64,000 bases of DNA from the NCBI RefSeq assembly GCF_019800885.1, contig NZ_JAHVKE010000001.1:1302001-1366000 (forward strand), given 5' to 3'. Positions within the stretch are counted from its first letter, which is position 1, and the number at the start of each line of letters is the position of its first letter. Positions 8,406 through 61,804 of the stretch are shown piece after piece. The notes under the pieces are model-generated. The model was not told the origin of the DNA and did not search any database. It worked only from the letters and a program-made list of their open reading frames with translations. The stretch comes from Maritalea mobilis (lineage in GTDB: Bacteria > Pseudomonadota > Alphaproteobacteria > Rhodobacterales > Rhodobacteraceae). The position numbers were made by a program, and so were the translations under genes.

Positions 8406-8474
8406 AAATTCCTCCGGATTATCGCCACGCACCGCCTTGTCGGCGGTCGTGGCCCCCCGCCGAGACGCAAGGTG

Positions 8475-11676: not shown

Positions 11677-11895
11677 AACACCTGCGCTGTGGGGATTCCG
11701 GCGCACATCCGACGTCACCGTCGTGTCCGACAATATGAAAATCGGCCGCACGGCAGGGCGCGACCGCCATTTTCTGCCTGAAACGCAAAGCGGACACGCA
11801 GTCTAACAAAAATTTTGCCCAAAAAAGTGACGGCGAAAGAATCCCACGGCGATTCTGCGACGCGGCATTGACGGTCGGCCATTCGCCCCTCCGAA

Positions 11896-11914
11896 TTAGA
11901 CAGAACGGTATGTT
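11896..11914 (+). promoter_or_regulatory. Second candidate TetR operator ahead of the ABC operon
   Basis: TTAGACAGAACGGTATGTT shares TTAGAC-R-GA with the palindrome near tetR and ends about 50 bases before the ATPase start, where the promoter of the ABC/cyanase array should be. A weak -35-like TTGACG is at 11868. The match is imperfect. Confidence 0.3.
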
Positions 11915-11965
11915 CGGTGCGCGGGTCACCCCGCCCCGGAGCCCCGAGCCGGAGAGCAAGAAGAG

Positions 11966-12805: not shown

Positions 12806-12870
12806 CGCCTTTCGCCGAATGACTGCCTGACCACCCTTCCCCCTCCACCCCCCTGCCAAGGATACCCGAG

Positions 12871-29790: not shown

Positions 29791-31653
29791 ATGGACAAGG
29801 AACACCTCCTGCGGGCGGCGGAAGCTCTCGATGCCGAAGACGCCGAGACTGCGTGGAGTACACTCTCTGATCTGCGCGGCCTGTCCGCGACCGCGGCGGA
29901 ACGGCGCCTGACGTTGAGCCTGTGGAAACGCGCCGTCCAGTTAAGCTTGGCGAAAGAGCGTTTGTCGTCGCCCGATGCCCTCGCGATCCTGCGCTTTCTG
30001 GGCGAGTTGGACCGCATTGTCGCAAGCGGCAATCATTGGCGTCTCTACGATGACCTGACCGCGGTGGACTCGGCGATCGACGCCAATGCCCTTGCATCGA
30101 TCCTTGTCACTGCGTTGGGCGACGTGCTGCCCGACATGCCGCTGGAATTGCGCCAGGAAATTCTCATCCGCTGCTTCATGGCCGGGCAGTCGGACACGCT
30201 GACCGAGCTTTGGGGCCTGTATTTCCGAACTGCACCGGATTTCGTGCCGGATTTCTGGCTGTTCCAGGCCTTCTTCCGGTCGCTGCACGAAACCGGGGAC
30301 GATGCGCCCGGGGCCCGGATTCTCGAGCTCTGCCGTGACGCGGAACGCGACGATCTGCTGCCGCTTCTGGAAATCTACCGCGCCTTGCTGCACCAGCGCG
30401 ACCTGACGGATGCCTTCACCAAGGCGCGCGACCTGACCAATCCGATGCAGCGGCGCATGATGGTGCTGTGGCTGCGCGGCGCGTCCCACAAGCACGACCT
30501 CATCGCCGAAGCGGTGCGGCTGCATGCCGAGCTCAGTGGCCCGGATGACGTCGACGAACGCGCCTATATGCAGGCCCGCCAGAAAGCGTCCGAAGGCGCC
30601 TGGGACGAGGTTCGCTCCATCACCGCGACCCTGCCCGCCGATGTCGATTTCCGAGGCGAGGCCCTCTGCCTCGAAGCGCTGGCCGAGGCTCATTGCGGGA
30701 ATTTCGACGCCGCCCATTCTGCGCTGCGCCACGTCCGGGCGCGCCGGGATGTGCCTTGGTTTCTTGCCGGTCGCGCGGCCCTTGTCGGCTGCGTCGTGTC
30801 GCGCATGGAGCGCGGCGCGCTGCCGCCCGAGCTTGCCAGCCCCCCGACCCTGTCGGTTGTCGCGGGGCGTCCCTTGGCGCAGTCGCTCTGGATCGGCCCG
30901 CGGCTCAGGTGGATCGAGGAGATGTCGATCCGCTCCTACCTGCGCAACGGATGGCGCTACCAGCTTTTCGTCTATGACCTGCCCGAGAACGTGCCCGACG
31001 GGGTCGAGGTGATGGATGCAACAGCCATCCTGCCGCGCAATACCGTGTTCCGCGAGGGCGCGGGCAGCGGCATGCACCGGGGATCGCTGGGCGCGTTTTC
31101 CGATCTTTTCCGCTACGCGCTCCTGTCGCGGCGGGGCGGGCTCTGGACCGATACCGACGTCATCAACCTCGACCGGTTCGAGCCTGACGGCGCCCGCTTC
31201 ATCGCCAGCGAGTGGACCGATGCGGGCATTGTCGGGCCAAACGGCGCGCTTATGGCCGCGCCGGCGGGATGCGCGTTTCAGTCCGCCGCGCTCGAACGCG
31301 CCCGGATGCTGCATGCCCGGCCGGACATGCATTTCGCAAGAATCGGGCCAGAGCTCCTGGCCGAGATGATGTGGCTCGGGGATGCACAAGACTACGACCT
31401 TTTGCCGCCCGACTACCTGAACCCGATCGGCTGGATGGAAACCGGCCGCCTGCTGGGCCCGTTCGAGGAAACGGCCGCGGCCCTGTCGCGGACGCAGGCG
31501 CGATGCCTTCATGTCTATACCGAAACCTGGCGGCTGATCGGCCTCGGCCTCGACGCGGAACCGGCAGAGGACGGCAGCTTCCTGGCAACCCTGAACGAGC
31601 GGCTGAAGGACGCCCCCGCCGACCGTTCCGTCCGCGACCTGCTGGAGGCATGA
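29791..31653 (+). CDS. GT32-like glycosyltransferase with helical N-terminal region
   Basis: Protein of 620 aa. The first 330 or so residues are alpha-helical and TPR-like (for example AEALDAEDAETAWSTLSDL and AEAHCGNFDAAHSAL). The rest is a GT-A glycosyltransferase: LAQSLWIGPRLRWIEEMSIRSYLRNGWRYQLFVYD, then YALLSRRGGLWTDTDVINL with a DxD metal site near residue 455, as in GT32/Gb3-synthase-type enzymes. It ends four bases before the next gene. The helical domain may hold the enzyme to a partner or a polymerising glycan. Confidence 0.78.
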   Translation: MDKEHLLRAAEALDAEDAETAWSTLSDLRGLSATAAERRLTLSLWKRAVQLSLAKERLSSPDALAILRFLGELDRIVASGNHWRLYDDLTAVDSAIDANALASILVTALGDVLPDMPLELRQEILIRCFMAGQSDTLTELWGLYFRTAPDFVPDFWLFQAFFRSLHETGDDAPGARILELCRDAERDDLLPLLEIYRALLHQRDLTDAFTKARDLTNPMQRRMMVLWLRGASHKHDLIAEAVRLHAELSGPDDVDERAYMQARQKASEGAWDEVRSITATLPADVDFRGEALCLEALAEAHCGNFDAAHSALRHVRARRDVPWFLAGRAALVGCVVSRMERGALPPELASPPTLSVVAGRPLAQSLWIGPRLRWIEEMSIRSYLRNGWRYQLFVYDLPENVPDGVEVMDATAILPRNTVFREGAGSGMHRGSLGAFSDLFRYALLSRRGGLWTDTDVINLDRFEPDGARFIASEWTDAGIVGPNGALMAAPAGCAFQSAALERARMLHARPDMHFARIGPELLAEMMWLGDAQDYDLLPPDYLNPIGWMETGRLLGPFEETAAALSRTQARCLHVYTETWRLIGLGLDAEPAEDGSFLATLNERLKDAPADRSVRDLLEA

Positions 31654-31657
31654 GCCC

Positions 31658-33952
31658 ATGATCATCGCCCATGACGACATGATGCGCCGCGCCGGAATCG
31701 AGGGGCCGGTGGCCTCGCTCGAGGCTTTCCTGCAAGGCACCCGCGCGCCGATCGGGGCGATTGCCGCCTCGGGCGCCGACCCCGTGCACCTGATCGACGC
31801 AGAAACGGACGCGGCCACCCTTCGCATGGCCTTGCGCCGGGCCGGTGCCGTCGAAGACCGGTACTGGCAGATCCGCATTGCCGAGCGTCTCCTGTCCCTG
31901 GAGGAGAATGCACGTGTGTCCGCGGACCTGATCGGCTGGCTGATCGAGGCGGGCGAAACCGGGCGCGCCCGCGTCGTGCACGACGCGGTGGCGGGCGGTC
32001 GCGGGCCGGGCGCGGACCGCACGCTCGACCTGCTGCTGGCCGAGGGAGATTTCGACGCGGCCCTGAGCTGTGACGATGCGGGCGGTCGGGAGGCACGGAT
32101 CGGTCGGGCGGCCCTTGCCGCGGGCCGCTGGGACCTCGCCGCCGAGATGATCGGGGCGGCGGAACGGGACCACCCCGACAGTGCGGATGTCGCCAGCCTT
32201 GTGATCCGCCAGATCGCCTTGCGCGATGGCCCCGACGCCGCGATTGCCGCCCTTGCGGACGGCCAGACAGGTCTGGCCCGGCACAGCGCGGCCGCCCGCG
32301 TGCTGCGCTACCGTCTGCAGATGGATTGCGGGCGACACCTCGAAACATTCGAGGAGTTGCAGGCAAAGCTCGAACAACAGCGCGATGCCTGGGGCTTCTA
32401 CTGGCTGGCCGAGGAAGCGGCGGCTCAGTGTGACAGCCTGCTGGAGTTCGGCGCATTGCTTGACGGCACGCTGGCGCTTTACCCGCTTCAGCGGCAGATG
32501 ATCCGGCAGAAGGCCGGGCTGGCCGCCACGCTCGGTGATTTCGAGACCACCGAGGCCCTTCTGCCGACGATCCGCCTGTTCTCGGAATGGGCGTGGCACG
32601 AAACACGGGTCACAACCGCCTGTCAGAACGCCGCGAGCAACGTTGTCGAGGACGTGCTTTCGGAAGCGGCGGCGGTTTCCGTGCCAAGGGAGCGCGTGAA
32701 CCTCACCGTCGCCCACTATTACTATTACTACAATGGCACCCCCGAGGGCCTTGAACGCGCGGGTGATCTTGCCGCACCGCTGGCAAGAAGCCTGTCCGAC
32801 GATCCGCAGTTCCAATGCCTCAGGCTGCGACTGGCTCTCGCGCGTGGCGAACGGGACGCGGCGGAACAGGACTATGATGCGCTTCCCGGTGGCCTTGCGC
32901 GGACCGCGGCACTGGCCCCCTTCGCGGCGCGGTTTGCCGCCGATGCCGGCGAACACGCGCGCGCCGCCGAGATCTGGCGGGACCACCTGACCTGCAGCCG
33001 CGCCATGGCGCTGAACGCAAGATCCGCCCATCCCGAAACCGTGCATCTGCAATGGCATCCGGGGCAGCGTGATGTCCTGCTGTTCATGACGGTGTTCAAC
33101 GGGATCGAGTTTCTCGACTGGTTCTTCGACCATTACCGGCGGCTTGGCGTCGACCATTTCTTCGTCGTCGACAACGGGTCGACCGACGGGTCATTCGAGT
33201 GGCTGGCCGCGCAGGGGGATGTGTCGCTGTTCCGGCAGACCGGCAGTTTCCGCCAATCCGCATGCGGGCTGACATGGGTCAATCACCTGATCCGTCGTTT
33301 CGGGGTCGGCCATTGGTGCTTCTACGTCGACGTGGACGAGGCCTTTGTCTTTCCGGGCATGGAAATCGGACGCACCCTGGCCGACCTGCTCTCCTATGCC
33401 GATGCGCAGGGGTGGCGGAGCATTCCCGCCATGATGCTCGACATCTACCCCGAGGACCTGAGCGCCGGAGCCGGGGAAAACCCGTTCGAGCGCAGCAGAT
33501 ACATCGACCGCGACTACCTGTCCTTCGCCAACGAAGTGCCGCCCTATCACTTCGTGCAAGGCGGTATCCGGGCGCGTCTGTCGGGGCGCAGCCTGATGAT
33601 GACCAAGGCGCCTCTGGTCCGCCCCGACCGCGATTTCTGCTTTCTCGCCAACAACCACCAACACAGTCACGTGCCGGTGGCCGACCTGTCTGGCGCGCTT
33701 CTTCATTACAAGTTCATCGGGGACCTTCTGGCGCGCGTGGACGAAGCCATCGAACGTGACGAGCACTTCATGGGCGCCCGTTTCTACAAGGCCTTGCAGT
33801 CCCCGCTGCGCGCCTCACGGGGCAAGGATGTTCTTCTGAGCGAGCACACGGTCGCCTACGAAGGCCCGGCGCAACTTGTCGAAATGGGCCTGATGTCGGC
33901 CCCCGAAGATTCGTGCCTGTTGCCTATCGGGCCCACATCGCGTTCTAGATGA
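31658..33952 (+). CDS. Glycosyltransferase family 2/92-like, with long helical N-terminal region
   Basis: Protein of 764 aa. Residues 1 to about 460 are helical, repeat-like and TPR-type. The catalytic part opens RDVLLFMTVFNGIEFLDWFFDHYRRLGVDHFFVVDNGSTDGS (about 470-510), continues with WCFYVDVDEAFVF (DxD near 556) and ends in a putative acceptor-binding segment, as in the Glyco_tranf_2_4/GT92 group. It follows the GT32-like gene by four bases and shares its domain plan, so the two probably act on the same glycan. No membrane helices are obvious. Confidence 0.8.
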   Translation: MIIAHDDMMRRAGIEGPVASLEAFLQGTRAPIGAIAASGADPVHLIDAETDAATLRMALRRAGAVEDRYWQIRIAERLLSLEENARVSADLIGWLIEAGETGRARVVHDAVAGGRGPGADRTLDLLLAEGDFDAALSCDDAGGREARIGRAALAAGRWDLAAEMIGAAERDHPDSADVASLVIRQIALRDGPDAAIAALADGQTGLARHSAAARVLRYRLQMDCGRHLETFEELQAKLEQQRDAWGFYWLAEEAAAQCDSLLEFGALLDGTLALYPLQRQMIRQKAGLAATLGDFETTEALLPTIRLFSEWAWHETRVTTACQNAASNVVEDVLSEAAAVSVPRERVNLTVAHYYYYYNGTPEGLERAGDLAAPLARSLSDDPQFQCLRLRLALARGERDAAEQDYDALPGGLARTAALAPFAARFAADAGEHARAAEIWRDHLTCSRAMALNARSAHPETVHLQWHPGQRDVLLFMTVFNGIEFLDWFFDHYRRLGVDHFFVVDNGSTDGSFEWLAAQGDVSLFRQTGSFRQSACGLTWVNHLIRRFGVGHWCFYVDVDEAFVFPGMEIGRTLADLLSYADAQGWRSIPAMMLDIYPEDLSAGAGENPFERSRYIDRDYLSFANEVPPYHFVQGGIRARLSGRSLMMTKAPLVRPDRDFCFLANNHQHSHVPVADLSGALLHYKFIGDLLARVDEAIERDEHFMGARFYKALQSPLRASRGKDVLLSEHTVAYEGPAQLVEMGLMSAPEDSCLLPIGPTSRSR

Positions 33953-34358: not shown

Positions 34359-35060
34359 ATGAACATTCGGACGTCCACCGCCGCCGCATTGACGGCTGCC
34401 ACCCTCGCAGCCGCGGCCGGCGCGCCGGCTCTGGCGCAACAAAGCGAATTCATCGCCATCGGCAACGTCGCCGAGAACGACTCGAGCTTCGGGATGCTCA
34501 GCTTCCGCCACGGGCTTGGCATGAGCCTTTACGACGGGATCGTCCTGCGGTTCGACGCAGCGCGCAGCGCCTACGAGGCCGGCGCTTCGGACGGAACGCT
34601 CGACAACTTCCGCCTCCTCGTCGGTTACGCGATGCCGCTCGATGCGACCTCGCGCCTGACCTTCTTTGGTGGTCTGTCCTATCGCGAACGGTCCTACTCG
34701 CCCTCCGCGCCGTTCCTCGACGAGGTGGATGAAGCAGGGGTGTTCCTGTCGGTGGAATACAACATCGACCAGACGAACGGGAACGAAGGCTTCGCCCTGG
34801 CCGAGTACGACTCGGTCGAGGACACGTTCTACACCAGCGCGTTCTACCTGTTCGGCCTGAACAACGACATTCGCGTGGGTCCGACCTTCAACTATCTCGA
34901 CGAAGGCGACTATTCCCGTCACGCCGCCGGTGTGCGGGCCGCGTTCGACATCGGTGACTCCAGCGAGATCAGTGTCACCGGCGCATGGGCCGAAGGTGAC
35001 ACGGGCGCTGCAACGATCGACTCCTCCTATGTCGAAGTGCAGTTCCGCCTGACCTTCTGA
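34359..35060 (+). CDS. Probable outer-membrane beta-barrel protein
   Basis: Protein of 233 aa with a cleavable signal peptide (ending GAPALAQ, about residue 26). The mature chain alternates polar and hydrophobic residues in strands and ends in VEVQFRLTF, the aromatic C-terminus used for outer-membrane insertion. Its layout recalls the BcsS-like barrel family linked to exopolysaccharide, but I cannot confirm that. It lies between glycosyltransferases and a sulfotransferase, consistent with surface or glycan export. A terminator-like hairpin follows. Confidence 0.7.
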   Translation: MNIRTSTAAALTAATLAAAAGAPALAQQSEFIAIGNVAENDSSFGMLSFRHGLGMSLYDGIVLRFDAARSAYEAGASDGTLDNFRLLVGYAMPLDATSRLTFFGGLSYRERSYSPSAPFLDEVDEAGVFLSVEYNIDQTNGNEGFALAEYDSVEDTFYTSAFYLFGLNNDIRVGPTFNYLDEGDYSRHAAGVRAAFDIGDSSEISVTGAWAEGDTGAATIDSSYVEVQFRLTF

Positions 35061-35134: not shown

Positions 35135-36055
35135 ATGGTCTTCGGGTTCTTGCGCGCTCTGTTGGGGGATCGCACCCCAGAGTCTGGCGAAATCGAGCCG
35201 TCTCAAGACGACGCGACGCTGGAAATCCTGCCACAACCCTTGGACAAGCCTGACCCGCTGCTGGATGGCGGTTACGAGGTCCTGCGCCGATCCGCGCTGA
35301 TCTACTCGAACTTCCGTTCCGGTACGCACATGTTGCGCTCGTCGCTGCTTCAGCTGACGGACCTTCAGACGGGCGGCGAGCTGTTCGCGCGGGCCAACCG
35401 GGAACCGGGCTCTTTCTCGGACTACGCCGCGCAACCCGATACCGAGGCCGCCGAGCTGCTGCTGGACCCGGAACGCCATCTCCCGCATTTCCTTGCGCAT
35501 CACTTGTCGACGCTTGCCCCGTCGCAGCCGGTGGTCTTCGATATCAAATACTCGCAGGCCGCTCGGCTGGGGGTGGACGACCTTACGCAGGCGCCGACCA
35601 TTCTGAAGTTTTTCACCGCCCTGCATGTGCCTGTTCTTCATGTCATCCGCCGCGATGTCGTGGCTCAGGCCGTGTCGCATCTGCTTGCCGAAAAGCGCGA
35701 CCAGTTCTTTGCCGACGCGGCCCTGTCCAATGGCCAGGGCAAGTCGGCCTCCCCGGTCTGGCTGAACCCGACCGAGGTCTGCGACCTTGCGCAAGCGCGC
35801 AGCGAAGAACAGCGCCGCGCACAAGCGCATCTTGCGGCCGTTTCGGCCGATGTCTGCACGCTCTACTACGAGGATTTGGCCGGGCCGAATTTCGTGCCCG
35901 AGCTGCGACGGATCTTCCAGTTTCTCGACCGCTATGCGCGGGTCGCGCCCGGCTACCGGGCACCGACGCGCCCGCAGAACAGCCGCCTCGATGTCGCGAA
36001 CCTCAACGAGATTTACGACATGGCCATGGAACGCATGCCGGGTCTGCTCCGCTAG
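35135..36055 (+). CDS. Sulfotransferase family protein (Stf0-like)
   Basis: Enzyme of 306 aa that should transfer sulfate from PAPS to a hydroxyl group. The 5'-phosphosulfate loop is NFRSGTHMLRSSLLQ (about residues 59-73) and the 3'-phosphate site is HVIRRDVVAQAVSHLL (about 172-187), the Stf0/sulfotransferase layout. It follows glycan genes and converges on the NRPS gene, sharing CTAG so that the two stop codons overlap. Substrate could be the local surface glycan or the NRPS product; I cannot choose. Confidence 0.82.
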   Translation: MVFGFLRALLGDRTPESGEIEPSQDDATLEILPQPLDKPDPLLDGGYEVLRRSALIYSNFRSGTHMLRSSLLQLTDLQTGGELFARANREPGSFSDYAAQPDTEAAELLLDPERHLPHFLAHHLSTLAPSQPVVFDIKYSQAARLGVDDLTQAPTILKFFTALHVPVLHVIRRDVVAQAVSHLLAEKRDQFFADAALSNGQGKSASPVWLNPTEVCDLAQARSEEQRRAQAHLAAVSADVCTLYYEDLAGPNFVPELRRIFQFLDRYARVAPGYRAPTRPQNSRLDVANLNEIYDMAMERMPGLLR

Positions 36056-39000
36056 CCGCCCGTATCGGCCTTTTCCTCGGCAGCCTGAGCGCGGGCTTCC
36101 CATTGCGACCTTGTATGTTGGATCGCGGGGTCATCCTTGAAATATTCGAGGGCTCCGTCGATCACGCGCAGGGCGAACTGGTGGTCCTCCGGAGCCAGTA
36201 TGCGGTTCAGCGCGGCGCGGACATGCCCGATATTGACCGTGCTGCGACTGAGCGCGTCAAGCAGAAGGACGTGGCACTGCCCTATCTGGCCGGTGCTCTT
36301 GGCAATCGCCGCGCGCGCCATCAGCGCCGGGATCGGAGTGACGGCCTGGCGTTCAATCTCGGTCGCGATGGCGTTGGCCTTCGACACTTCCCTGGTATTG
36401 AGCAGGCTCAAAACCAATTCAAAGCCGCCAAGGACGTCTTTCCCGGATTTCCGCATGGCCCGGCGCCAAGCGATGCGCGCCAAGCGGCGGTATCCGGCCG
36501 CCTGGCAGTATTTGCCGATAATACTCCAATGCAACGCCGTGTAGTCGTCGCGGAGCATCCCGCGCATCACGTCACGCGGAAATATCGTGCGATCCCCGGC
36601 CTTGGCATGGGTCGAGAGGCGGGCGGCATACAGCCATTCCGAACTGGCGCCGTAGCGGCGGGCCAGATCGTCGTAGATCCGGGCTGCCTCGGCATTCCGG
36701 CCCTCGAGGCTGAGGTCGCGGGCCGTATATGCGCGGTCGAGGTCATCGGCCGAAAACCGGGTCTCGATCGGTCTTCCGGATCGGGTGTCGCCCGCAAGAA
36801 TTTCGTCAACCATGCACGCCAGTTTCCTGGCGTGCACCCCGTGAATGACCGCCAGATGCGACGTCGCGATCTCATGAACATTCAGGCCGCCCTCGGCCAA
36901 GAGGGCGTATTCCTCGGCCCCGTTGTTTGGCGGGCCCGGGAAGGTTTCAGGACAAAAGATGTAGTCGATCCCAACAGGGGTCAGGCGCAATCGATGCCCC
37001 CAGCGCAGGCGGTTGAGCCGCGCCTGAACGGGAAACGGGGCATCGTGATCGAACCGCGGCAGCTCTGGCGCGAGGTTCGAGTTGGGATCGATCAGTATCG
37101 TGTGTCCAAGCTCACCGCCCTTTGCCTGCAACGCCCCGGACAGGACGAAGGCAAGGAACCCGGCGAATGAATACCCGACGAGGTGCAGTTCGCGTTGGCC
37201 GAACTCGGCCAGAAGCTCTTCGGCCATGGCGTCGGCGAGGGACTGGAGGCTGTCATGGTTCGCGACCAGAGGATCGTCTTCCGCCAGGTTCAGGCCGAAT
37301 ACGGGGCGCCCGTCCCGGGGCAGGTTCTCGACCATCTCTCGCGCCCAAAGACACGCCCCGCGCAATCCCGCAACCGCGATGAGGGGCGTCTTGGTGGCAT
37401 CGCCGTCCCGCAAGGTGACAAGGAACCGCCGCCGCGGCCCGGTCTTGGAACTGGCGGCCATGGCGTGCAGCCGATTGAGCGTCGCCTCGGCAAAGAACCG
37501 GTCGATATCGAGGCGACGGTCGAACGCCTCCTCGGCGGCGAGGAGGAGTTGCATGGCCGACAGCGAGTTGCCGCCGGCGAGAAAGAAATCTGTATCTGGC
37601 CCGGCCGGCGGCGTCCCGAGGATGGACGACCATGCAGCCACCAGCCGCTCATCGACCTGGGACAGGGCCGCGGTTTCGGCGTCGGTGTCGGCGACCTTGC
37701 GGCGGTCAGACAAGACGGCACGCAGGGCAGCCCGGTCGACTTTGCCGTTCGGTGTCAACGGCAATTCGTCGAACACATGGAACTCGGTGGGCAGATGGCT
37801 GCGCGGGAGTGTCCGGGCGAGCTGGGCTCTGAGCGACGGGATGTCCACGGTCGCATCGGGCACGATGGCCGCCGCAATCCCTGTGACGCGGGTTTTGTCG
37901 TCCGACCAAAGCGGCAGGACCGCAGCCGTCGCGACGCCACCGCACTTCTGCACGGCATCTTCGACCTCGGCAGGTTCGATGCGATGGCCGTTGAACTTGA
38001 TCTGGCTATCGATGCGGCCGTGGAAATGGAGGCATCCATCGCTGTCCCGGCTGACCCGGTCGCCGGTCTTGTAGAGGCGCACCTCGCCCGGCCCCGGCAG
38101 GCCAAGCCGCTTGGCCGGGAAGGTCCGGAAACGGTCTGCCGTCAGGTCTGGCTGGCCGATGTATTCACGGGCAAGCCCCGGGCCGCCGATCCACAATTCG
38201 CCAGCGAAACCATGCGCAAGGACATGGCCGATCGGGTCCAGAACAAAGGCCATGTTGTTGGGCAATGGCCGCCCAAGCGGAACTGGGCCGGTTTCGCCCG
38301 GCGCGATGGGGTGGATCGTCGTCAGTGCGCTGTTCTCCGTCGGGCCGTAGACGTTGAACAAGGTGGTGTCGGGGTGGTTGCGAAAGAACCGGCCGGTGTG
38401 TTCGCGGCTTGTCGCTTCGCCACCGGTGGCGACCCAGCGCAGCGTCCGGAACACCTTGGGTCGCGTGTCGACCAGCAGGTTGAACAGGCCGGTTGTCAGG
38501 AAGGCCTTGGTGACCTCGTAGTCTTCGAGGAGGTCACCGATTGCCCGCGCATCCCCCAAGGGACCCTCTGGCGAGACCAGTTCCGCCCCGTTCAGCAGCG
38601 CGCCCCAGATCTCGATGAAGGTGGCATCGAACCCCGGCGATGCGAGTTGCGGGACGCGGTCGCCGGGTCCGGGCGGCTCGGGGGTCAGCCCTGCCGCAAG
38701 GCGGGCAATGCCGCGATGCGGGATGGCCACGCCCTTGGGGCGCCCGGTCGACCCCGAAGTGAACACGATCACGGCTGTGCGGTCTGGATCTCCGGTTGCG
38801 GGGGTGGGCAACGGCGCCTGGCTCATCACATCCGTTGGTATGGCGGGTGGCAAACGCTCGATTTTCGCGTCAGAGGACAGGTCTGCGCCATCGACGCCGG
38901 TCGAGATGACCGTCGCACAACCTGCAATGGCGATCATGTCCCGCAAGCGCGCAGCCGGAAGGGACGGATCGAGCGGCACCACGACGTGACCGGCAAGCAT

Positions 39001-40617
39001 CGCGCCCAGCAACGCCCGAACGTGGTCTGCACCACGATCGGCCATCAAACCGATGGGCGTACCCGGTTCCAGCCCCTGCCCGCGCACCCAGTCGCACACG
39101 GCCAGCGCCTGGGCCGCAAGCTCTCGATAGCTCCACCGCAGACGAGGCGTTCGCAACGCTGGGGCCTCCGGCGTGCGGCGGACCTGTTGAAGAAAGAGCG
39201 CGCCGATATCTGCCCCGTCAGGATAAGCGGCTGGGGCCGTTGCATGGCGCGCAAACTGCACCAGATCCCCCTGCCGCGGCACGAGCGGAAGGGTTGTCGG
39301 GCGGATACCCGCGGGATCGTCGGCACAGGCGACCTGCAACAGCATGGCCCGATACGCGGCAAGCGCGCTTTCGAGCGTGGCGCGGGTGAAGAGAAGCCTC
39401 TGACCCCTCAGGCGGAATCGCAGCCCTCCATCCGCGCGAAAGATGGCCAGGTGCAATCCAACCGGCAGGGGTTTCGCATCCGGCTCGACCCGGTCGACGC
39501 GGCAATCTGCGAAGACCGGTTCAGCCGTTTCATCCCCGTAATAGATCACCGACGCACTGCTTGGGCCCATCGGCGCCACCGGGGCCGCCCCGAGCGGGAG
39601 TCGAGACAGGGTCCGGCTCACGTCCCCGGCGAGGCGCGCCACAGTCGGCCCCTCTTCGAGCGACGCGCTCAGTTGGACATTCTCGACGCACATGCCGACC
39701 ACGGCCTCGGCGGCGGCGTCGGTCCGTGTCGTGCGCGATACCGAAACCGCCACCTCGGGTTGGTCGCAGATCCGGCTGACCAAGACCTGGAACAAAGCGG
39801 CGGACAGGCCGAAGACCGTCGCATTGCAGGCCAGCGCGGCACGCTGCACGAGATCGCTGTCACCCGGGTCGAACACGGTCTCGGCATGATGCGCCATTGA
39901 ACCCTGCGGCTCGGCAGCCCCTTCGCCCTGCGTGGGCCAGGCAGGATCTGCGACCGGTTGAGCCGGGGATGGATCCATCTTGCGGCGTGCCCCCCCGGAC
40001 AGAAAACTGCGGTAACTCGCTGGCGTCGGGAGTGAAGGGCGATCGGACGAGCCGCCGGCCTCAAGCGCATAAAGGCGCGAAAGATCCTCGGCCAGGATGC
40101 TGAATGTGCTGTGATCCGCCATGATGTGATGGGTAAGGCAGACCAGCACGTGATCGTCCGGGCCGCAGAGCAGCAGGTGAAAGGCGTGAAGCGGGCCCTC
40201 GGCGAGGTCGAACCGCCGCTGCGACAGCGCGGCAAGGCGACGTTGCACCCAGGCCTCCGGATCCGTTTCGGCACGGGGGCATAGCTCGGCCTCCATCCCG
40301 GCCCATCGCGGCGCTGCACTGAAATCGGGCATGGCCTGACCATCGCGCACCGAGATCCGCAACCGGAACGCGTCGTGACGCTCCAGGAGCCGCCCGATTG
40401 CCCGATCGAGCGCCTCCAGATCCAGCGCGCCCCGGATGCGCCACGCGCGGATCTGGTTGAAACGCGCGCCCGCCTTGCCGAAGCGTTCGGCCATCCACAT
40501 CGCGGTCTGCGCCTGCGTCAGGCGTGCAGCCCGGTCGGTCGGGGCTGACTCCGCCTGCCGTTTCGCGGCAAGCCTTTGCCGCGCGCGCGCCGCCTGCTGC
40601 AGCAGGTCCTCGCTCAT
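36052..40617 (-). CDS. Non-ribosomal peptide synthetase, C-A-T-TE with TPR-like tail
   Basis: Multidomain enzyme of 1521 aa. A condensation domain (about 20-450) has HHIMADH in place of the usual HHxxxDG. The adenylation domain (about 480-985) has TSGSTGRPKG and FNVYGPTE; by hand alignment its specificity pocket reads about D-A-I-F-A-G-V-A-L, suggesting a hydrophobic amino acid. The carrier site is LAGGNSLSAMQ (Ser near 1015). The thioesterase has GYSFAG (Ser near 1148). After it come about 220 residues of TPR-like helices, an unusual addition. The gene is coupled to the upstream acyl ligase by ATGA. Together they should make an N-acyl amino acid or short lipopeptide. Confidence 0.9.
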   Translation of the reverse strand: MSEDLLQQAARARQRLAAKRQAESAPTDRAARLTQAQTAMWMAERFGKAGARFNQIRAWRIRGALDLEALDRAIGRLLERHDAFRLRISVRDGQAMPDFSAAPRWAGMEAELCPRAETDPEAWVQRRLAALSQRRFDLAEGPLHAFHLLLCGPDDHVLVCLTHHIMADHSTFSILAEDLSRLYALEAGGSSDRPSLPTPASYRSFLSGGARRKMDPSPAQPVADPAWPTQGEGAAEPQGSMAHHAETVFDPGDSDLVQRAALACNATVFGLSAALFQVLVSRICDQPEVAVSVSRTTRTDAAAEAVVGMCVENVQLSASLEEGPTVARLAGDVSRTLSRLPLGAAPVAPMGPSSASVIYYGDETAEPVFADCRVDRVEPDAKPLPVGLHLAIFRADGGLRFRLRGQRLLFTRATLESALAAYRAMLLQVACADDPAGIRPTTLPLVPRQGDLVQFARHATAPAAYPDGADIGALFLQQVRRTPEAPALRTPRLRWSYRELAAQALAVCDWVRGQGLEPGTPIGLMADRGADHVRALLGAMLAGHVVVPLDPSLPAARLRDMIAIAGCATVISTGVDGADLSSDAKIERLPPAIPTDVMSQAPLPTPATGDPDRTAVIVFTSGSTGRPKGVAIPHRGIARLAAGLTPEPPGPGDRVPQLASPGFDATFIEIWGALLNGAELVSPEGPLGDARAIGDLLEDYEVTKAFLTTGLFNLLVDTRPKVFRTLRWVATGGEATSREHTGRFFRNHPDTTLFNVYGPTENSALTTIHPIAPGETGPVPLGRPLPNNMAFVLDPIGHVLAHGFAGELWIGGPGLAREYIGQPDLTADRFRTFPAKRLGLPGPGEVRLYKTGDRVSRDSDGCLHFHGRIDSQIKFNGHRIEPAEVEDAVQKCGGVATAAVLPLWSDDKTRVTGIAAAIVPDATVDIPSLRAQLARTLPRSHLPTEFHVFDELPLTPNGKVDRAALRAVLSDRRKVADTDAETAALSQVDERLVAAWSSILGTPPAGPDTDFFLAGGNSLSAMQLLLAAEEAFDRRLDIDRFFAEATLNRLHAMAASSKTGPRRRFLVTLRDGDATKTPLIAVAGLRGACLWAREMVENLPRDGRPVFGLNLAEDDPLVANHDSLQSLADAMAEELLAEFGQRELHLVGYSFAGFLAFVLSGALQAKGGELGHTILIDPNSNLAPELPRFDHDAPFPVQARLNRLRWGHRLRLTPVGIDYIFCPETFPGPPNNGAEEYALLAEGGLNVHEIATSHLAVIHGVHARKLACMVDEILAGDTRSGRPIETRFSADDLDRAYTARDLSLEGRNAEAARIYDDLARRYGASSEWLYAARLSTHAKAGDRTIFPRDVMRGMLRDDYTALHWSIIGKYCQAAGYRRLARIAWRRAMRKSGKDVLGGFELVLSLLNTREVSKANAIATEIERQAVTPIPALMARAAIAKSTGQIGQCHVLLLDALSRSTVNIGHVRAALNRILAPEDHQFALRVIDGALEYFKDDPAIQHTRSQWEARAQAAEEKADTGG

Positions 40618-42446
40618 TCGAGTTGCCCGCTTTCGGTCGGGGCCTCGGCAAAGGCCTCGGCAATGCGGGGGCGCACCGTGTCGCCGCGATGTGCTTCCAA
40701 CCAGGACGCAAGGCTGGCGACATCGCGTTCGATCGCCAGGATGTCGCCCGGCACAAGGACGCCTAGCTCCTCCTCGATGCGCAGTTGAAACCGCATGAGC
40801 GATAGCGAGTCGCCGCCGGAGAGGAAGAAATCGTCATGTCGGCCATGACCCTCGCGGATCAGGATCTCCTCGATCATCAGGACCAGCAGCGCCTCGAGCG
40901 CCGTTTGCGGCGCGGCATAGACCGGGGTGAACTTGTCCTGCAAGCGGGCGGCCGCCTCGATCCGGGCCGGTTTGCCAATGCGATTGAGCGGGATCTCGGA
41001 CACCGGGAAGACGCTGCGCGGAACCGCCTCGGCCGGGAGCCGGTCAGCCACCCTCCGAAGGATCGCATCGGGATCGAAGGCATCGGCATCCACGGGCACG
41101 ACCGCGGCCAGCACATCCTGCCCAAGGGAGGGATGCGGCGCGCCGAAGACGATCGCGGCGGCGACGTTGTCGTCCTGCAAAAGCGCAGCCTCGACCATGA
41201 CCGGGGACGCCATGGCGCCACCGCGATTGATCAATTCCTTGAGGCGGGCATGGATGCGCACGTGCCCGCGCTCGTCCAGTTCCGCAAGGTCGCCCGAGCG
41301 AAGCCACCCTTCGTGAAACGCCTCGGCCCGATCGCCGGGATAATCCGCGTATCGCGTGATGACGTTCGGACCGCGCAGCAGAAGCTCGCCCTTTTCCGAG
41401 GGCGCCGTCGTGACCTCGCCTGCCTCCGTCAGGATCGCGACCTCGGTGCCTTGCGCAGGACCGATGGTGCCGTGGATCGGCACCTCTCCAAACGGTTGGT
41501 GCGCGACCCAACTGGACGCCTCCGTCATACCCATCCCTTCGAGCAACGGGCAGCCGAGATGATTCTGAAGCAGGTCGCGGGTGACGCCATCCATTGCCGA
41601 GGAAGAAGACCGCGCAAACCGGAGCGACACATCCCGCGCAAGACCCGCATCCCGTTCAAGCGCCTGCGCGACGCTGTGATGGATGGTCGGCACCGCGGTG
41701 TACCAGTTGGCACGAGTTACCGCGCAGGCGGATAGAACCTGCGCCCCATCCCCGTTGGCCAGAGGCACGGTCGCCCCCCCTGAAAATACCGGCGTGAGGG
41801 TGCCGATGCACAGGCCATGCACGTGGAACAGCGGCATCGGGTTCACGCAGACCTCACCGGGCGACAGGGCGAGGGTTCGGGCCGCCGATTGCGCGCCGCT
41901 GGCCAGGTTGGCCTGGGTCAGTTCCACGACCTTGGGGCGGCCGGTCGTGCCGGATGTCTCGATCACGAGGGCCGGAGCGGCATCGTCCACCGGCTCAAGC
42001 GCTGCCTGCCCGCCACTGGACTGAGCCTCCGGCTCGAGATGGAACTCCGCAAAACGCGTGGCCGGAGAGAGCCGGAGCACCGGAACATCCACCGGCGGCA
42101 GATCGAGACCGGAAGGGACAACAAGGGCCTTGACCGATAGCCGCTGCATAAGGTCCGGCAATTGGCGCCCGGTCGAGGGATCGACGGGCACCACCGGGAC
42201 ATGGGCGAGGAGGCCGAGAAAGGCCGAAACGGTAAGCGGCCCCCGCTCTGCCCAGAGTGCAACGCGGTCGCGGCCCCGAACCCCGGCTTGCGCGAGGGCG
42301 GATCCGACGCTGGCCAGAAGGTCCGACAGGGCCGCGTAGGACAACCCATCGCGCCCATCCGCCGACAGGATCACGGGCGCAGACGGCGCGGTTCGGGCAA
42401 ATGCCTCGATCCGTTGGCCGATGAGAGGCGGTCTGACGTCTGGCAC
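40614..42446 (-). CDS. Acyl ligase (AMP-forming) fused to a carrier domain
   Basis: Protein of about 610 aa that likely activates a carboxylic acid and loads it on its own carrier for the NRPS next door. The adenylation core has VIETSGTTGRPKVVELTQANL and, where amino-acid enzymes have the Asp of FDxS, reads MPLFHVHGL, as in fatty-acyl or small-acid CoA ligases, so its substrate is not an amino acid. The carrier site is FLSGGDSLSLM (Ser near residue 545). The start is uncertain: GTG at 42446 with a weak AGG site is preferred, GTG at 42470 is an alternative, and an upstream ATG at 42827 would run over another gene. It overlaps the NRPS start. Confidence 0.85.
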   Translation of the reverse strand: MPDVRPPLIGQRIEAFARTAPSAPVILSADGRDGLSYAALSDLLASVGSALAQAGVRGRDRVALWAERGPLTVSAFLGLLAHVPVVPVDPSTGRQLPDLMQRLSVKALVVPSGLDLPPVDVPVLRLSPATRFAEFHLEPEAQSSGGQAALEPVDDAAPALVIETSGTTGRPKVVELTQANLASGAQSAARTLALSPGEVCVNPMPLFHVHGLCIGTLTPVFSGGATVPLANGDGAQVLSACAVTRANWYTAVPTIHHSVAQALERDAGLARDVSLRFARSSSSAMDGVTRDLLQNHLGCPLLEGMGMTEASSWVAHQPFGEVPIHGTIGPAQGTEVAILTEAGEVTTAPSEKGELLLRGPNVITRYADYPGDRAEAFHEGWLRSGDLAELDERGHVRIHARLKELINRGGAMASPVMVEAALLQDDNVAAAIVFGAPHPSLGQDVLAAVVPVDADAFDPDAILRRVADRLPAEAVPRSVFPVSEIPLNRIGKPARIEAAARLQDKFTPVYAAPQTALEALLVLMIEEILIREGHGRHDDFFLSGGDSLSLMRFQLRIEEELGVLVPGDILAIERDVASLASWLEAHRGDTVRPRIAEAFAEAPTESGQLE

Positions 42447-42649: not shown

Positions 42650-43525
42650 TCAGACCGGTTTCACGTCGACACTGTGATGGCTGGTCTGGTCGCCCGAGGT
42701 CCGCAACACGCCCTTGACCGGCGCCACGTCGGCGTAGTCGCGGCCATGGGCGACGGTGATGTGGTCGGCGCCGACGATACAGGCATTGGTGGGGTCGACC
42801 TCGATCCAGCCGGCCTCGGACCCGCACCAGGCCGAAACCCAGGCATGCATGGCATCCGCGCCCTCCAAGCGGGGCTGCCCCGGCGGCGGAATGGTGCGCA
42901 GGAAGCCCGAGACATAGCCCGCGGGAATACCCAGGGATCTGAGCGCGGTGATCGTTATGTGCGAGAAATCCTGGCAGACGCCGTGGCGATTGGCGAAGGC
43001 CTCCTGCGCGGGTGTATCGACATCGGTGGCCTCCGGATCGAAGCGCATTTCCGCATGCACGGCGTTCGAGATCGCCTCGACCGTTTGCCGCACGGTCGAG
43101 CCCGGCGCGCGAAGCGACGCGGCAAAGTCGGCAATGGCGGGATCCTGCAGGATCCGGGGCGAGGCCCCGAGGAAATGATGCGGCGCGGCGGGATCGAGGC
43201 TGCGATAGGCCGCGATGTCCGCGGCGAGGTCGCTCAGCCGTGGCGAGAGGTCCAGGCTGCCCGCCGGCGCGAGACGCTCGGCCGAGGCACTGAGCGTGAA
43301 TTCGATCTGGTCGATCGGCTGGTGAAAGGCGAGGACGCTCATCGCATTGCCGAAGAAATCCGTCGTGTCGCGCCGCTCGTTCGGCATCGGATCGACGGTC
43401 AGCAGGCGCGAGCTGACGGTCTGGCGCCCCGGAAGGTCGGACGGCAGCAGATGCACCAGGGTGCGCGCATGATCCGACAGGGCGCCGTAATTGTAACCGA
43501 TCGACAGGCTGATTTCGTATCGCAT
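42650..43525 (-). CDS. Transglutaminase-like cysteine protease family protein
   Basis: Protein of 291 aa with an N-terminal bacterial transglutaminase-associated domain (MRYEISLSIGYNYGALSD...) and a papain-fold core: catalytic Cys in RHGVCQDFSHITITALRSLGIPAGYVSGF, His in DAMHAWVSAWCG, Asp in IEVDPTN. The start at 43525 gives family length; the open frame extends to 43603 into the preceding gene. It is the last member of the three-gene module with ATP-grasp/alpha-E and transglutaminase/DUF2126 proteins. Enzymatic target is unknown. Confidence 0.88.
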   Translation of the reverse strand: MRYEISLSIGYNYGALSDHARTLVHLLPSDLPGRQTVSSRLLTVDPMPNERRDTTDFFGNAMSVLAFHQPIDQIEFTLSASAERLAPAGSLDLSPRLSDLAADIAAYRSLDPAAPHHFLGASPRILQDPAIADFAASLRAPGSTVRQTVEAISNAVHAEMRFDPEATDVDTPAQEAFANRHGVCQDFSHITITALRSLGIPAGYVSGFLRTIPPPGQPRLEGADAMHAWVSAWCGSEAGWIEVDPTNACIVGADHITVAHGRDYADVAPVKGVLRTSGDQTSHHSVDVKPV

Positions 43526-43533
43526 GGCGCCCC

Positions 43534-45936
43534 TCAGACCAGGTAGGCCGCTGACAGCGCCGCCGAGGCCTCGGCCAGTGACGCGCGCACGTGGTGCAGA
43601 CAATCCAGGGTCACGGTGTCGGGATGGGCCACGACAAGCTCCGTTTCAAGCCGGAGCAGGACGCCCAGCACGTCCGACACGCGCCCCTCGACCTTCGCGT
43701 CGGGCAGGTCTTCGGCAATCTTTCGCATCGCGCTGACCTGAAACAGGATCGAGCGCGGGTTGTGAACGTCCAGCGTCAGAAGGTCGGCCACGGTATCCCG
43801 CGTCGGATCGATGCGGTAGCGGCGCTGGTGAGAAATCCGGCTGTCGCCGTATTCGAGCGCCATGTCGAGCAGGCCCGAGGACGGATCCTCGCCCGGGATG
43901 GCCGCCGCCAGAACGGCGGCAGCGGCATCCGCGCGTTCGATCGCGCGCCCGAAGGTCAGGAAGCGCCAGCCCGAGGTGCGATGCATGTTTTCATGCACCA
44001 GGCCGTTGAACCCGGTGATCTTGCGCAGCAGGACGCCAAGCGCGCGGGCGGACTCGTCGCCGGGCTGGAGCGCGCCAGACATCGCCTCAAGGCTGTTGAC
44101 GAGATCGGTCAGCGCCGCCCAGCCATCGACGGAGAAGCGGTCGCGGACCTTGCCGGCACAGACCCGCGCGGCCCCGAGGGCGGGCGCGATGGCGGCATGC
44201 GCCGGCTGGGTCACGTCGATGAAGAGCGCACCGAGGAGGTTCCCGACCTCAACGAGGCTGGCATCCGCCGGATCGCCGGTTTCCGCCAGCCGCAGGTGGT
44301 AGCCGCGCAAAAGCCGGATCGCGCCCTCGGTCCGCTCGACATAGCGGCCCAGCCAGTAAAGGTTATCAGCCGCGCGGCTGGGCAAGGCCCCCGTGTCCTC
44401 GCGCCGGAAACTCTCGCGGTCGAACAGGGTCTCGGCCGCCGCCGGTGCGTCGCACATCACCCAGACATCGGCCACCGACCCGCCCTGCTGCATGGACAGC
44501 GCCGTGGCATCTCCGGTGCGCCCGACGCGGGCATAGCCGCCCGGCAGGAAAACCCAGCCCTGCGGGGTGCGCGCAGCGAAGACGCGAATGCTCATCGGGC
44601 GGGGCTGCATCCGGCCTTCGACCCAGCAGGGCGTCGTGGACAGGGTCACCGCCTCCTGCCCGACAAGGTTCGGCGCGTTCTCGTCGATCCAGTCGGGCAG
44701 CGCGTTGGTTTGCAGATTGCGCGCCTCTCCGGCCAGGGCCGCCGCGCTGCCGATGTCGAAGGGAAGCGCCCGGCTGAGCGCGTCGCCGATGAACATCTTG
44801 TCTGCGTTCTGCTTGACGAAATCGCGTTCCGCGGGCTGTCCGCACCACCAGGTCGCGATATTCGGCAGGCGCAGCGGTTCGCCCAGGACGACCTCTGCGA
44901 TCTTGGGCAGGAAGGCGAGGAGCACCCGGGTTTCGAGGATGCCAGAGCCCAGCGCGTTTACGATATTGACGTTCGACTGCCGCAGGGCATCGACCAGCCC
45001 CGGCGTTCCGATCCGCGATGTCTCGTCCAGCTCCAGCGGGTCGGCATAGGCCGCGTCAAGCCGCCGCCAGAGGACCCCGACGGGTTGCGGACCGGACACG
45101 GTGTTGACCTGCACCTCGCCGTTCTTGACGATCAGATCCTCGCCTTCGAGGAGCGGCAGGCCGAGATAACGCGCGATATAGGTGTGTTCGAAATAGGTGT
45201 CATTGCCGGGACCCGGTGACAGGACGGCAACGCGCCGCCCCGCCACCCCCGGCAGCGCGTCCATGGCGTTGCGGAAGGCGCGGAAGAACCCGGCAAGGCG
45301 GCGCACGTTGGTCCGCGAGAACGGGTCGGAGAAGATGCGCGCCGTGGCCATCCGGTTTTCCAGCGCGAAGCCCGCGCCCGACGGCGTCTGTGTCCGGTCG
45401 CCCAGCACCAGCCACGAGCCGTCGGGGCTGCGCCCGATCTCGAAGGCGATGTGATGCAGGAAATGCCCCGACGCGGGGGCGATGCCGACAAGGGGACGGT
45501 GCCACTCGGGGTTCTGCGCGATCAGGCGTGCGGGCAGATGCCCGTCGCGCACGAGTTGCCCCGGGCCATAGAGATCGGCCACCACCCGTTCCAGCAGCTC
45601 GGCGCGTTGCGCAAGGCCCGCGCAGATATCCTCCCATTCGCTGGCGTGCAGGATGACGGGAACGTGGCTTAGCGGCCATTCGCGTTCCTGCAACGGATCG
45701 GCGCTGTATTGGCGATAGAAGACGCCCGCATCGCGCAGGTACTGGTCGCCGCGAGCGAAGCGTTCGGTCACCTGGTCTGGCGTAAGCTGCGAGAGCTGCC
45801 GGATGAAGCCCGCCCAGACCGGGCGCATATTGCCATTGGCGTCGAACAGCTCGTCCGCGACCCCCGGCGCGACGTGGTAGTCGGCCAGAAACGAAGGGAG
45901 CCCCTCGGGCCCCGGCTGTTGTGCCCCGCCACTCAT
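43534..45936 (-). CDS. Circularly permuted ATP-grasp protein fused to alpha-E domain
   Basis: Protein of 800 aa. The N-terminal two thirds match the circularly permuted ATP-grasp type (CP_ATPgrasp, DUF404/407): [53 protein letters not shown] and [18 protein letters not shown]. The last 300 residues are an alpha-E domain, starting near [31 protein letters not shown]-grasp enzymes form amide or peptide bonds; here the product is unknown. The start at 45936 overlaps the DUF2126 stop by four bases; the downstream transglutaminase ATG lies only nine bases beyond its stop. The three genes are typically neighbours in bacteria. Confidence 0.88.
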
Positions 45937-48900: not shown

Positions 48901-49277
48901 AGCGGCCCCTCGCCTTCGGGTGTCCGGTAGATGACGAGATCATCCTTGAGATCTGCGGGATAATCGAAGGGCCAATGCTCGGCGCTGTCTTCGACGAAGA
49001 AGTCGAAGGGGTTGTAGACCGTCATGTCGGCGACAAGATCGACCTCGATCTTGAACTCGCGCACCGGCTCGGGGAAGACGAACCGCGCCATCCAGTTGCC
49101 ATACGGATCCTGCTGATGGTTCACGAAATGCCCGCCGGGCGACACCTTCAGACTATGGGAAATCACCCGTGTCCGGCTATGTGGCGCGGGCCGCAGCCTG
49201 ACGATCTGCGGTGAAAGCGTGACCGGCCGGTCATACTGGTAATGGGTGAGGTGGTAGAGGCTGGCGTAGATTGACAT
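45933..49277 (-). CDS. Transglutaminase-like protein with DUF2126 domain
   Basis: Large protein (1114 aa). The N-terminal third is a transglutaminase module: [23 protein letters not shown], catalytic Cys in [30 protein letters not shown] (about residue 180), His in [11 protein letters not shown] and Asp in GLDPTSGLL. The remaining 650 residues belong to DUF2126, with conserved stretches such as [26 protein letters not shown] and [25 protein letters not shown]. It heads the three-gene minus-strand module. A peptide-ligating or hydrolysing system acting on small peptides or proteins has been proposed for such modules from comparative genomics. Confidence 0.9.
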
Positions 49278-59697: not shown

Positions 59698-60094
59698 GCT
59701 CTCCTCCTGTCTGGCTTGGCCGCGGGCATAGCAGAGAAAAAGAATGCCGCCGCATGAAAGGCACTTATAACCAGCACCGCAGAAAGGACCAAAACCTTCG
59801 GGTCTATCAATCAATGCCCCTCGTTCATCTCAGGTCACCAGGCAGCGAGGGGCGACGGCTCACCGTCCAAACTCAGCCGCCTCACAAGCGTCTGGAAAGG
59901 CGCGCAAAATTCTTGGGATTTTTTTACCGGGAAATGAAACGGACGCAGTGGCGGAGGAGGTGAAAGGCAAAGGATGGTATCAGCGTGGTTCGTGCCGCTT
60001 CATGAAAACCCGCTAGCCAATTGATTTACTTTTCCTTTCTGGATCATGGCGTTCCAATCCGTCTTATGGCGGAGTCTGGCAGGCCATCGCCATT
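59698..60094. other. Region before the integrase gene; possible island boundary
   Basis: About 400 bases with no recognisable gene. It becomes AT-richer than the flanking chromosome on the left, with T- and A-runs near 59918-59933. P4-type integrases usually act at a tRNA end, but I do not see a tRNA here. A plausible left boundary of acquired DNA lies in it. Confidence 0.4.
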
Positions 60095-60121
60095 TGCTAC
60101 CTTTTCGACAGCAAGGTAGCA
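60095..60121 (+). promoter_or_regulatory. Hairpin / inverted repeat just before the integrase start
   Basis: Perfect 9-bp inverted repeat TGCTACCTT-N9-AAGGTAGCA, immediately upstream of the integrase ribosome site (AAGGAG at 60123). Could be an mRNA hairpin limiting integrase translation, or an operator for a self-regulating integrase. Confidence 0.5.
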
Positions 60122-60137
60122 CAAGGAGATCCGACCA

Positions 60138-61439: not shown

Positions 61440-61658
61440 CGCATTTTGCAATTGAAGGCCCGGCACCAGTGCATCGTTCGCGATCCAAAAGTGTCACGGA
61501 CCGGCAACCGTGGTGCGGGCCACCGTTGAGATGGGCGGAAAGCAGACCTTCGCTGCGCATCGCATGAAGGACCAAAGGCAGTGACATGATCCGCGTGCTG
61601 ATCCATCTGAAGCTACGCAAGAAGGACTGGCGACCGACATTTATGTTGCCAAAAATTA
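61440..61658. other. Region between the integrase and the IS1595-like element
   Basis: About 220 bases with no gene. Small frames exist but none is family-like. Its right end is the 8-base A/T-rich sequence AAAAATTA (61651-61658), which I read as a possible target duplication of the transposable element that follows. Confidence 0.35.
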
Positions 61659-61681
61659 GGGGGCTATATACTTAACTAGCC
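61659..61681 (+). repeat. Candidate terminal inverted repeat of the IS1595-like element (left end)
   Basis: Begins GGGGGCTATATACTTAACTA, about 125 bases beyond the DUF3800 stop, with the 8-base AAAAATTA directly outside. No partner repeat is visible because the other end lies outside the window. Confidence 0.4.
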
Positions 61682-61804
61682 AAGCGGTCGGTTCTTGAAG
61701 CCGGGGCATCTACGTGCTATTCGATAGCGTAGCAGCCTTTGCTTGGTGAACGGCCCCTGGGCCTCCTCGTGATAGCCAAGATCGCCGATATGGCGGGCTG
61801 CCCA

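Follow-up and report, generated by a model that had tools for sequence, protein, structure and literature searches.

The described systems closest to the genes reported here each share part of their layout. In EntE/EntB-EntF, a separate ligase and carrier feed a single module of condensation (C), adenylation (A), carrier (T) and thioesterase (TE) domains. Nonribosomal peptide synthetases (NRPSs) of lipopeptides initiated by a fatty acyl-AMP ligase (FAAL) and an acyl carrier protein (ACP) likewise present an acyl ligase, a carrier and then a C domain, and the oxalate-coenzyme A (CoA) ligases plant AAE3 and yeast Pcs60 provide the closest solved structures of the ligase discussed below. A passage of PMC9935904 relates that the oxalyl-AMP of plant AAE3 serves the synthesis of an N-oxalyl amino acid. 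Here, we analysed a 64,000-nucleotide stretch of the Maritalea mobilis genome (contig NZ_JAHVKE010000001.1, positions 1,302,001 to 1,366,000; hereafter the window, whose own numbering is used for coordinates) that carries, on the minus strand, a gene for an acyl ligase-carrier fusion (P0002) followed by a gene for a C-A-T-TE protein with a long tail (P0001). Our results suggest, with roughly even confidence, that these proteins form a two-protein NRPS joining one small carboxylic acid to the nitrogen of one amino acid. A more tentative proposal, which we hold at somewhat less than even confidence, is that the pair belongs to an oxalate-started NRPS family in which oxalyl would be held on a carrier, changed by a thiamine diphosphate (ThDP) enzyme with Gln for Glu, and passed to a C-A-T-TE protein with a docking tail resembling tetratricopeptide repeats (TPRs); the window, with two genes, would have lost the ThDP step and would make N-oxalyl amino acids directly or use another small acid.

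The window also differs from each of these systems. The EntF model covers residues 33-1177 of P0001, but at 266.3 bits the protein lies far under the cut-off (2400 bits), and, unlike in EntE/EntB-EntF, an oxalate-type ligase is fused to its carrier and a TPR-like tail is present; siderophore genes were not searched for. In contrast to FAAL/ACP-initiated lines, the window has a ligase that is not closest to fatty-acyl ligases and a single module. Compared with oxalate-CoA ligases, of whose four motifs it keeps three, the window ligase is fused to a carrier, stands beside an NRPS and has Ser for the His of MTEAxH. An earlier reading of the window, made from the sequence only, knew of no characterised assembly line with this plan; none with a known product was found in NCBIfam (best 25 of 106 matches of P0001) or in literature searches (top-ranked results), although the plan itself recurs in two relatives.

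The gene pair and the C-A-T-TE protein

The ligase-carrier gene runs from 42446 to 40614 and the NRPS gene from 40617 to 36052, and the two overlap by 4 bases. P0002 (40614..42446, minus strand) is read here as 610 amino acids from the GTG at 42446, the start chosen by the sequence-only reading, and thus without the first 127 residues of the longest open reading frame (ORF), which starts at 42827 and has its stop at 40614. The sequence GAAAGG ends 9 bases 5' of this GTG, which we regard as the putative start. In P0001 (1521 amino acids; 36052..40617, minus strand), the Pfam domains follow the order C-A-T-TE and all lie over their cut-offs: Condensation at residues 31-339 (E 7e-29), AMP-binding at 477-819 (9e-66), AMP-binding_C at 884-959, PP-binding at 990-1050 and Thioesterase at 1119-1188 (5e-07). 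The module described from the sequence only was thus confirmed. At E<=0.001, P0001 gave the sole Condensation match in the 3.67-Mb genome.

The C domain (39283..40530, residues ~30-445, its end set by eye) carries HHIMADH at residues 163-169 (40111..40131). Both His residues and the Asp are kept and the Gly is replaced by His, so that the motif is HHxxxDH and not HHxxxDG, as the same reading had pointed out. This form is uncommon. Among 403 distinct C domains from the fetched loci, a sample that leans toward relatives of the window, 23 were without the pattern [HR]HxxxD and 380 possessed it, the window counted in: 331 with DG, 18 with DA, 8 with DE, 6 with DH, 6 with DS and 11 with others. The figure of 6 is an undercount, because each of two Xenorhabdus loci, counted here with one DH site, has three in the raw pattern scan; besides these loci and the window, DH was found in Burkholderia turbans and in G068. 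As the Gly is also absent in 49 of the 380 domains, the DH motif does not exclude an NRPS. In addition, a passage of PMC11546977 states that the roles of the active-site His differ among C domains and cites a functional HQxxxDM example, and therefore the change does not imply a dead C domain. The motif was also considered as a hallmark of the assembly-line plan; this was rejected, because the motif is HHxxxDD in G279 and HHxxxDG in L069, the two sister loci described below.

The A domain (37741..39189; AMP-binding and AMP-binding_C) retains the Asp of amino-acid A domains (D664, in GFDATF). Among the best 25 of 106 NCBIfam matches of P0001, the only one that passed its cut-off was the generic amino-acid adenylation domain TIGR01733 (336.8 bits, cut-off 317.4). 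With code positions placed by motif from general knowledge, the specificity code reads DAIFAGVALK in the window and DGVFSGVALK in G279, and we know of no specificity code that these fit. The T domain (37468..37650; PP-binding 2e-12) contains DFFLAGGNSL with Ser 1018, and the TE (36778..37440) contains GYSFAG. Residues S1150, D1177 and H1254 align across the thioesterases of the window, G279 and L069 and, going by what is generally known of such enzymes, are likely the catalytic triad.

The starter ligase is akin to oxalate-CoA ligases

P0002 possesses AMP-binding, AMP-binding_C and PP-binding domains. At the site where amino-acid A domains have FDxx, it has the stretch MPLFHVHGL and the amino-acid Asp is missing, which bears out the earlier description of an acyl ligase-carrier protein. 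The carrier domain, DDFFLSGGDSLS, lies at 40698..40859 (Pfam PP-binding 3.4e-07), and the adenylation domain at 40971..42407. Both the comparison with solved structures and the phylogenetic tree revealed that this adenylation domain is akin to oxalate-CoA ligases. Among the best 60 of 181 solved relatives, the oxalate-CoA ligases 5ie0 (2.1e-63) and 6qjz (3.5e-62) came first and the malonyl-CoA ligase 3nyq (1.5e-44) next. Three of the four motifs of oxalate-CoA ligases are kept, namely PLFHVHGL (HxHGL), WYTAVPTIH (WxxxVPTxH) and RSSSSAM (RSxS), and these three are common to the plant oxalate-CoA ligase and to free-standing enzymes of the same bacterial family.

At 1e-75, the ligase-carrier profile matched in 184 of 290 genomes of the family, and most of the matches listed were frames of about 500-600 residues ending before the carrier; the window genome itself has such a copy (L186:6182-7708), which is 37% identical to the window ligase. 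From the 30 loci returned, 27 free-standing enzymes were examined, all with PLFHIHGL and RSSS and 25 with a readable MTEAxH; the pattern scan overlooked some motifs or put them in the wrong place, and an alignment was used to re-read the carrier-fused rows. Because one member reaches 2.6e-118 with 5ie0 and 1.8e-62 with malonyl-CoA synthetase, we assigned the group to the oxalate-CoA-ligase type. The tree pairs the ligase of the window with that of G279 as sisters (98/96) and joins the two to the 27 free-standing enzymes (90/80). L069 was left out of this tree, and one protein, that of G266, was entered twice, so that its nine fused rows represent eight proteins. At 1e-90, P0002 had no match elsewhere among 390 genomes of the order, a threshold at which a ligase such as the G279 one may be missed.

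A fatty acid as the activated substrate, with a lipo-amino acid as the product, would agree with the best NCBIfam name of P0002, FadD7 family fatty acid--CoA ligase (289.5 bits, below the cut-off of 650), and with the abstract of PMC9113097, in which an acyl ligase, a carrier and a C domain are the usual set for lipoinitiation. However, the FadD7 model also scores best (431 bits) on the free-standing enzyme that matches oxalate-CoA ligase at 2.6e-118, so this name gives no pointer to fatty acids. In addition, none of the best 60 of 181 solved relatives is a fatty acyl-AMP ligase by name, and several fatty-acyl-CoA ligases lie far below the oxalate-CoA ligase. A fatty-acid start is, in our judgement, rather unlikely. 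The sequence-only reading had expected an N-acyl amino acid or a very small lipopeptide; an N-acyl amino acid is probable, because the line is a minimal acyl-ligase/carrier with C-A-T-TE, while the lipid part is not supported, the ligase being nearest to oxalate-CoA ligases.

Two sister loci carry a ThDP enzyme between the ligase and the NRPS

A ligase-carrier gene beside a gene for a C-A-T-TE protein with a tail recurs in two relatives, G279 and L069, neither of which is characterised. G279, from the same family as the window, encodes a 616-residue ligase-carrier (L032:17721-15871), a 526-residue ThDP enzyme (L032:15874-14294) and a C-A-T-TE-tail protein of 1529 residues from its listed start at 14390 of L032, and the set spans L032:9801-17721; an in-frame NRPS start at 14297 would give 4-base overlaps at both junctions. 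This NRPS is 33% identical to P0001 over residues 33 to 1421. L069 (CANMAI010000011.1, an uncultured Rhodobacteraceae bacterium) surfaced through a contig scan with patterns common to ordinary NRPSs. It shows the same order, with overlapping gene ends: a ligase-carrier (6440-8260), a ThDP enzyme (8257-9894) and a C-A-T-TE-tail protein (9854-14275 as listed, the ATG at 9887 being a likelier start).

The ligases of both loci retain all four oxalate-type motifs, including MTEAxH, and that of L069 matches 5ie0 at 1e-106. The two ThDP enzymes are 28% identical to each other (1e-33), and their best solved relatives are 2-hydroxyacyl-CoA lyase/synthase and oxalyl-CoA decarboxylase (1.5e-57 for L069 and 2e-32 for G279); the L069 enzyme lies far under the NCBIfam cut-off (189.7 bits versus 557). 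Read by eye, both have Gln (CRSQ, CRTQ) in the position of the usual catalytic Glu, which is present in two ThDP enzymes of the window genome (RHEQ, RQEG). Because the sister ligases keep the four motifs and a ThDP gene is adjacent, the family probably starts from oxalate, and for G279 and L069 themselves the kinship of the ligase, the motifs and the ThDP gene agree on this probable start.

The possibility of a one-off plan unique to the window was rejected once these loci had been found. The set has three genes in G279 and L069 and two in the window, where the absence of the ThDP gene coincides with the changed His. All three share an oxalate-type ligase-carrier and a C-A-T-TE protein with a long tail. 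The sisters, unlike the window, have a ThDP enzyme between these genes and keep the His of MTEAxH, whereas in the window the ligase and NRPS genes directly overlap.

The tail of P0001 is predicted to form TPR-like hairpins

The tail comprises residues 1281-1521 (241 residues; 36055..36777). The sequence-only reading had described TPR-like residues after the TE; the tail does model as TPR-like hairpins, but no Pfam TPR profile matched at E<=1 in the whole of P0001, and the tail alone gave just TPR_14 at E 6.6. AlphaFold2, run on the tail alone without an alignment, predicted 13 helices with a mean predicted local distance difference test (pLDDT) of 72.5 and a predicted template modelling score (pTM) of 0.62. 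In Foldseek searches with this model, TPR or TPR-bearing proteins dominate among the matches listed (best 8chy, E 1.4e-4). VIA-align superposed the model on MamA with a Z of 14.1 and a root-mean-square deviation of 3.0 over 172 aligned residues; helical repeats often give Z values of up to about 13. The stacked hairpins thus superpose on TPR structures, and in these models the tail is a helical repeat of TPR-like hairpins. When the TE and tail were predicted together, the TE part was poor (mean pLDDT 46.7).

Of the 63 ORFs with a TE in the fetched loci, four have at least 290 residues past the profile-matched TE part: those of the window, G279 and La 6, and one from a Kitasatospora, in which the extra part is a transporter. 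L069 runs 254 residues past this part, and 17 of the 25 ORFs listed run 130-161; because the TE profile stops before the end of the TE, these counts are not tail lengths. The tail of L069 gives weak Pfam TPR matches (E 1e-4; TPR_1 22.5 bits, below the cut-off of 27.8). With an identity of just 15-25% between aligned tails, this region evidently drifts fast. A phmmer search of the fetched ORFs with the window tail recovered no relative but itself and missed even the G279 tail, and a query of the TE and tail in plasmids gave one weak match, confined to the TE part. We infer a docking or scaffold role for the tail.

Simpler relatives and distribution

Related ligase-carriers also occur in simpler proteins. 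Plasmid pLA6_008 of La 6 encodes ligase-T-TE-TPR in one protein of 1117 residues (TPR_8 47.5 bits, cut-off 25.7); its gene (L149:7950-11303), annotated as a long-chain fatty-acid CoA ligase, overlaps a gene annotated as a trimethyllysine dioxygenase. Ligase-T-TE proteins were found on a Gemmobacter aquarius plasmid and in G153. G133 (L182:2997-6431) has ligase-T-sulfotransferase-TE in one protein, with Thioesterase at 25.6 bits, just under the cut-off of 26.4; this order of carrier, sulfotransferase and thioesterase recalls curacin-type chain release. In G266 (L180:7414-11357), a ligase-T with 300 further, unassigned residues overlaps a P450 gene. None of these five proteins has all four oxalate-type motifs, and in those of La 6 and G133 just the HxH within the first motif remains. 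The Rhodobacteraceae ligase-T-TE proteins (La 6, Gemmobacter aquarius, G153 and G133) thus resemble the window in combining a related ligase-carrier with a thioesterase, and La 6 also in its TPR, but they are without the C-A module.

At 1e-60, with two candidates scored per genome, P0001 had matches in 46 of 295 genomes of the family, and among the matches listed G279 alone extends beyond the thioesterase. In samples of the phylum (398 genomes, 1e-120) and the class (385 genomes, 1e-110), no match among those listed reaches the tail besides the window itself.

Is oxalate still the starter in the window?

Several observations weigh against oxalate as the acid used by the window pair, or against its activity. 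First, Ser 312 of P0002 (41511..41513) makes the fourth motif MTEASS; in oxalate-CoA ligases and in G279 and L069 this position is the His of MTEAxH, which we take to be an oxalate-binding residue of AAE3. Second, a tblastn search with both sister enzymes did not find a ThDP gene in the window (best E 2.0). Third, the branch of the window ligase is long (4.85), and its join to the free-standing group (90/80) is not starred. Fourth, PF01648 has one match in the window genome at E<=0.1, which reads as a plain AcpS (MILGIGTDLANIERI), and no phosphopantetheinyl transferase (PPTase) of the Sfp type was found there, hits of PF17837 being at chance level, unlike in G279. Given Ser in place of His and the absent ThDP gene, the acid of the window is perhaps no longer oxalate; together with the absent Sfp-type PPTase, these points weaken oxalate, and the acid may be another or the pair may be idle.

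One way to keep oxalate would be for a ThDP enzyme from another locus of the genome to act on the oxalyl carrier, with an N-formyl or 2-hydroxyacyl amino acid as the product. A ThDP gene does sit between the ligase and the NRPS in both sister loci, and the window genome has several ThDP enzymes, with the highest score against the oxalyl-CoA decarboxylase model at C1:784860 (180.5 bits, cut-off 739). However, this model also responds in all 14 control genomes, and the ThDP proteins of the window genome that were tested are ordinary, 23-25% identical to those of the sisters over their length, with the usual Glu against the sisters' Gln in the two proteins read. In addition, the Ser of the window ligase speaks against an oxalate start of this kind. 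We consider this scenario highly doubtful.

The PPTase data also bear on whether the pair might be a remnant, acquired or decaying, without activity in this strain. PF17837 exceeds its cut-off in G279, G263 and G067, and its best hit in the window genome (0.075) sits in a frame resembling ribosomal protein S6. PF01648 has one match in each of two same-genus genomes and at least two in the NRPS-matching G279, G067, G263 and G120; G196 (64% complete, NRPS present) has one. No second PPTase was found in the window genome, as against one in each of G279, G067, G263 and G120, but a divergent one is possible, because PF17837 overlooks the second PPTase of G120. A remnant would also account for the missing ThDP gene of the sisters and for the distribution within the genus: neither of the two same-genus genomes tested carries the pair, and the DNA common with them begins at window 49532, inside an acyl-CoA ligase gene, and extends rightward, with otherwise only short scraps. 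Against this, both genes are long, uninterrupted reading frames with the core A, T and TE motifs preserved, and a single broad AcpS, such as serves carriers of this kind in some bacteria, could serve both carriers. On balance, an inactive remnant seems unlikely.

Neighbouring genes

Upstream of the pair, on the minus strand (42650-49277), lie genes for a transglutaminase, a circularly permuted ATP-grasp/Alpha-E fusion and a transglutaminase-DUF2126 protein. In one comparison, the trio was colinear in G279 at 47-74% identity, on a contig other than that of its NRPS; a functional tie to the pair was therefore not supported, and we take the trio as a separate system. A passage of PMC5666114 describes operons of this kind together with Anbu. 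The ATP-grasp protein has matches of just 30% in the two same-genus genomes. The G+C content across both genes of the pair is 65-68%, similar to most of the window. At 60000-64000, it drops to 51-56%, compared with about 65% elsewhere, and this part is likely another acquired stretch.

Downstream of the pair are a sulfotransferase-like gene (35135-36055), a gene with a signal-peptide-like start and no Pfam match (34359-35060) and glycosyltransferase genes (29791-33952). The sulfotransferase-like gene converges on the NRPS gene from the opposite strand and overlaps its stop by 4 bases. It contains an RSGT stretch and matches Sulfotransfer_3 at E 0.0066 (17.2 bits, below the cut-off of 27), and no solved relative was found at E 0.1. 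Its position and that of the glycosyltransferase genes, together with the sulfotransferase domain between the carrier and the thioesterase of the G133 ligase protein, might suggest that the pair makes an acyl group for surface sugars with these genes at 25.6-36.1 kb. However, they lie on the opposite strand, and none of seven further ORFs tested next to the G279 genes was of this kind, although that contig stops 379 bases upstream of the G279 ligase; we regard this explanation as very improbable.

Proposed pathway and its meaning

Going by the motifs of P0002 and P0001, we propose that the ligase would adenylate a small polar acid of the oxalate type and transfer it to the carrier domain of P0002. 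Next, the C domain would couple the carrier-bound acid with the amino acid placed by the A domain on the second carrier, and the thioesterase would release an N-acyl amino acid, while the TPR-like tail would dock a partner protein or keep P0002 and P0001 together. In G279 and L069, the ThDP enzyme would probably act on the carrier-bound oxalyl before condensation, by decarboxylation to formyl or by carbon-carbon coupling. Because the window is without a ThDP enzyme, its ligase probably takes the final acid directly. Oxalate is, to our knowledge, not a described starter acid in NRPS chemistry, and literature searches showed no NRPS with such a starter among the results listed.

If the proposed oxalate start is true, these loci would represent bacterial routes to N-oxalyl amino acids, or one-carbon chemistry on a carrier protein; N-oxalylglycine, for example, is a blocker of 2-oxoglutarate enzymes. 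Even with another acid, a set of two or three proteins is small enough for complete in vitro rebuilding. The fusion of a thioesterase to TPR-like repeats makes it possible to study the role of TPR arms in assembly lines, and the window, set against G279 and L069, is a natural experiment on the effect of one His and one ThDP enzyme.

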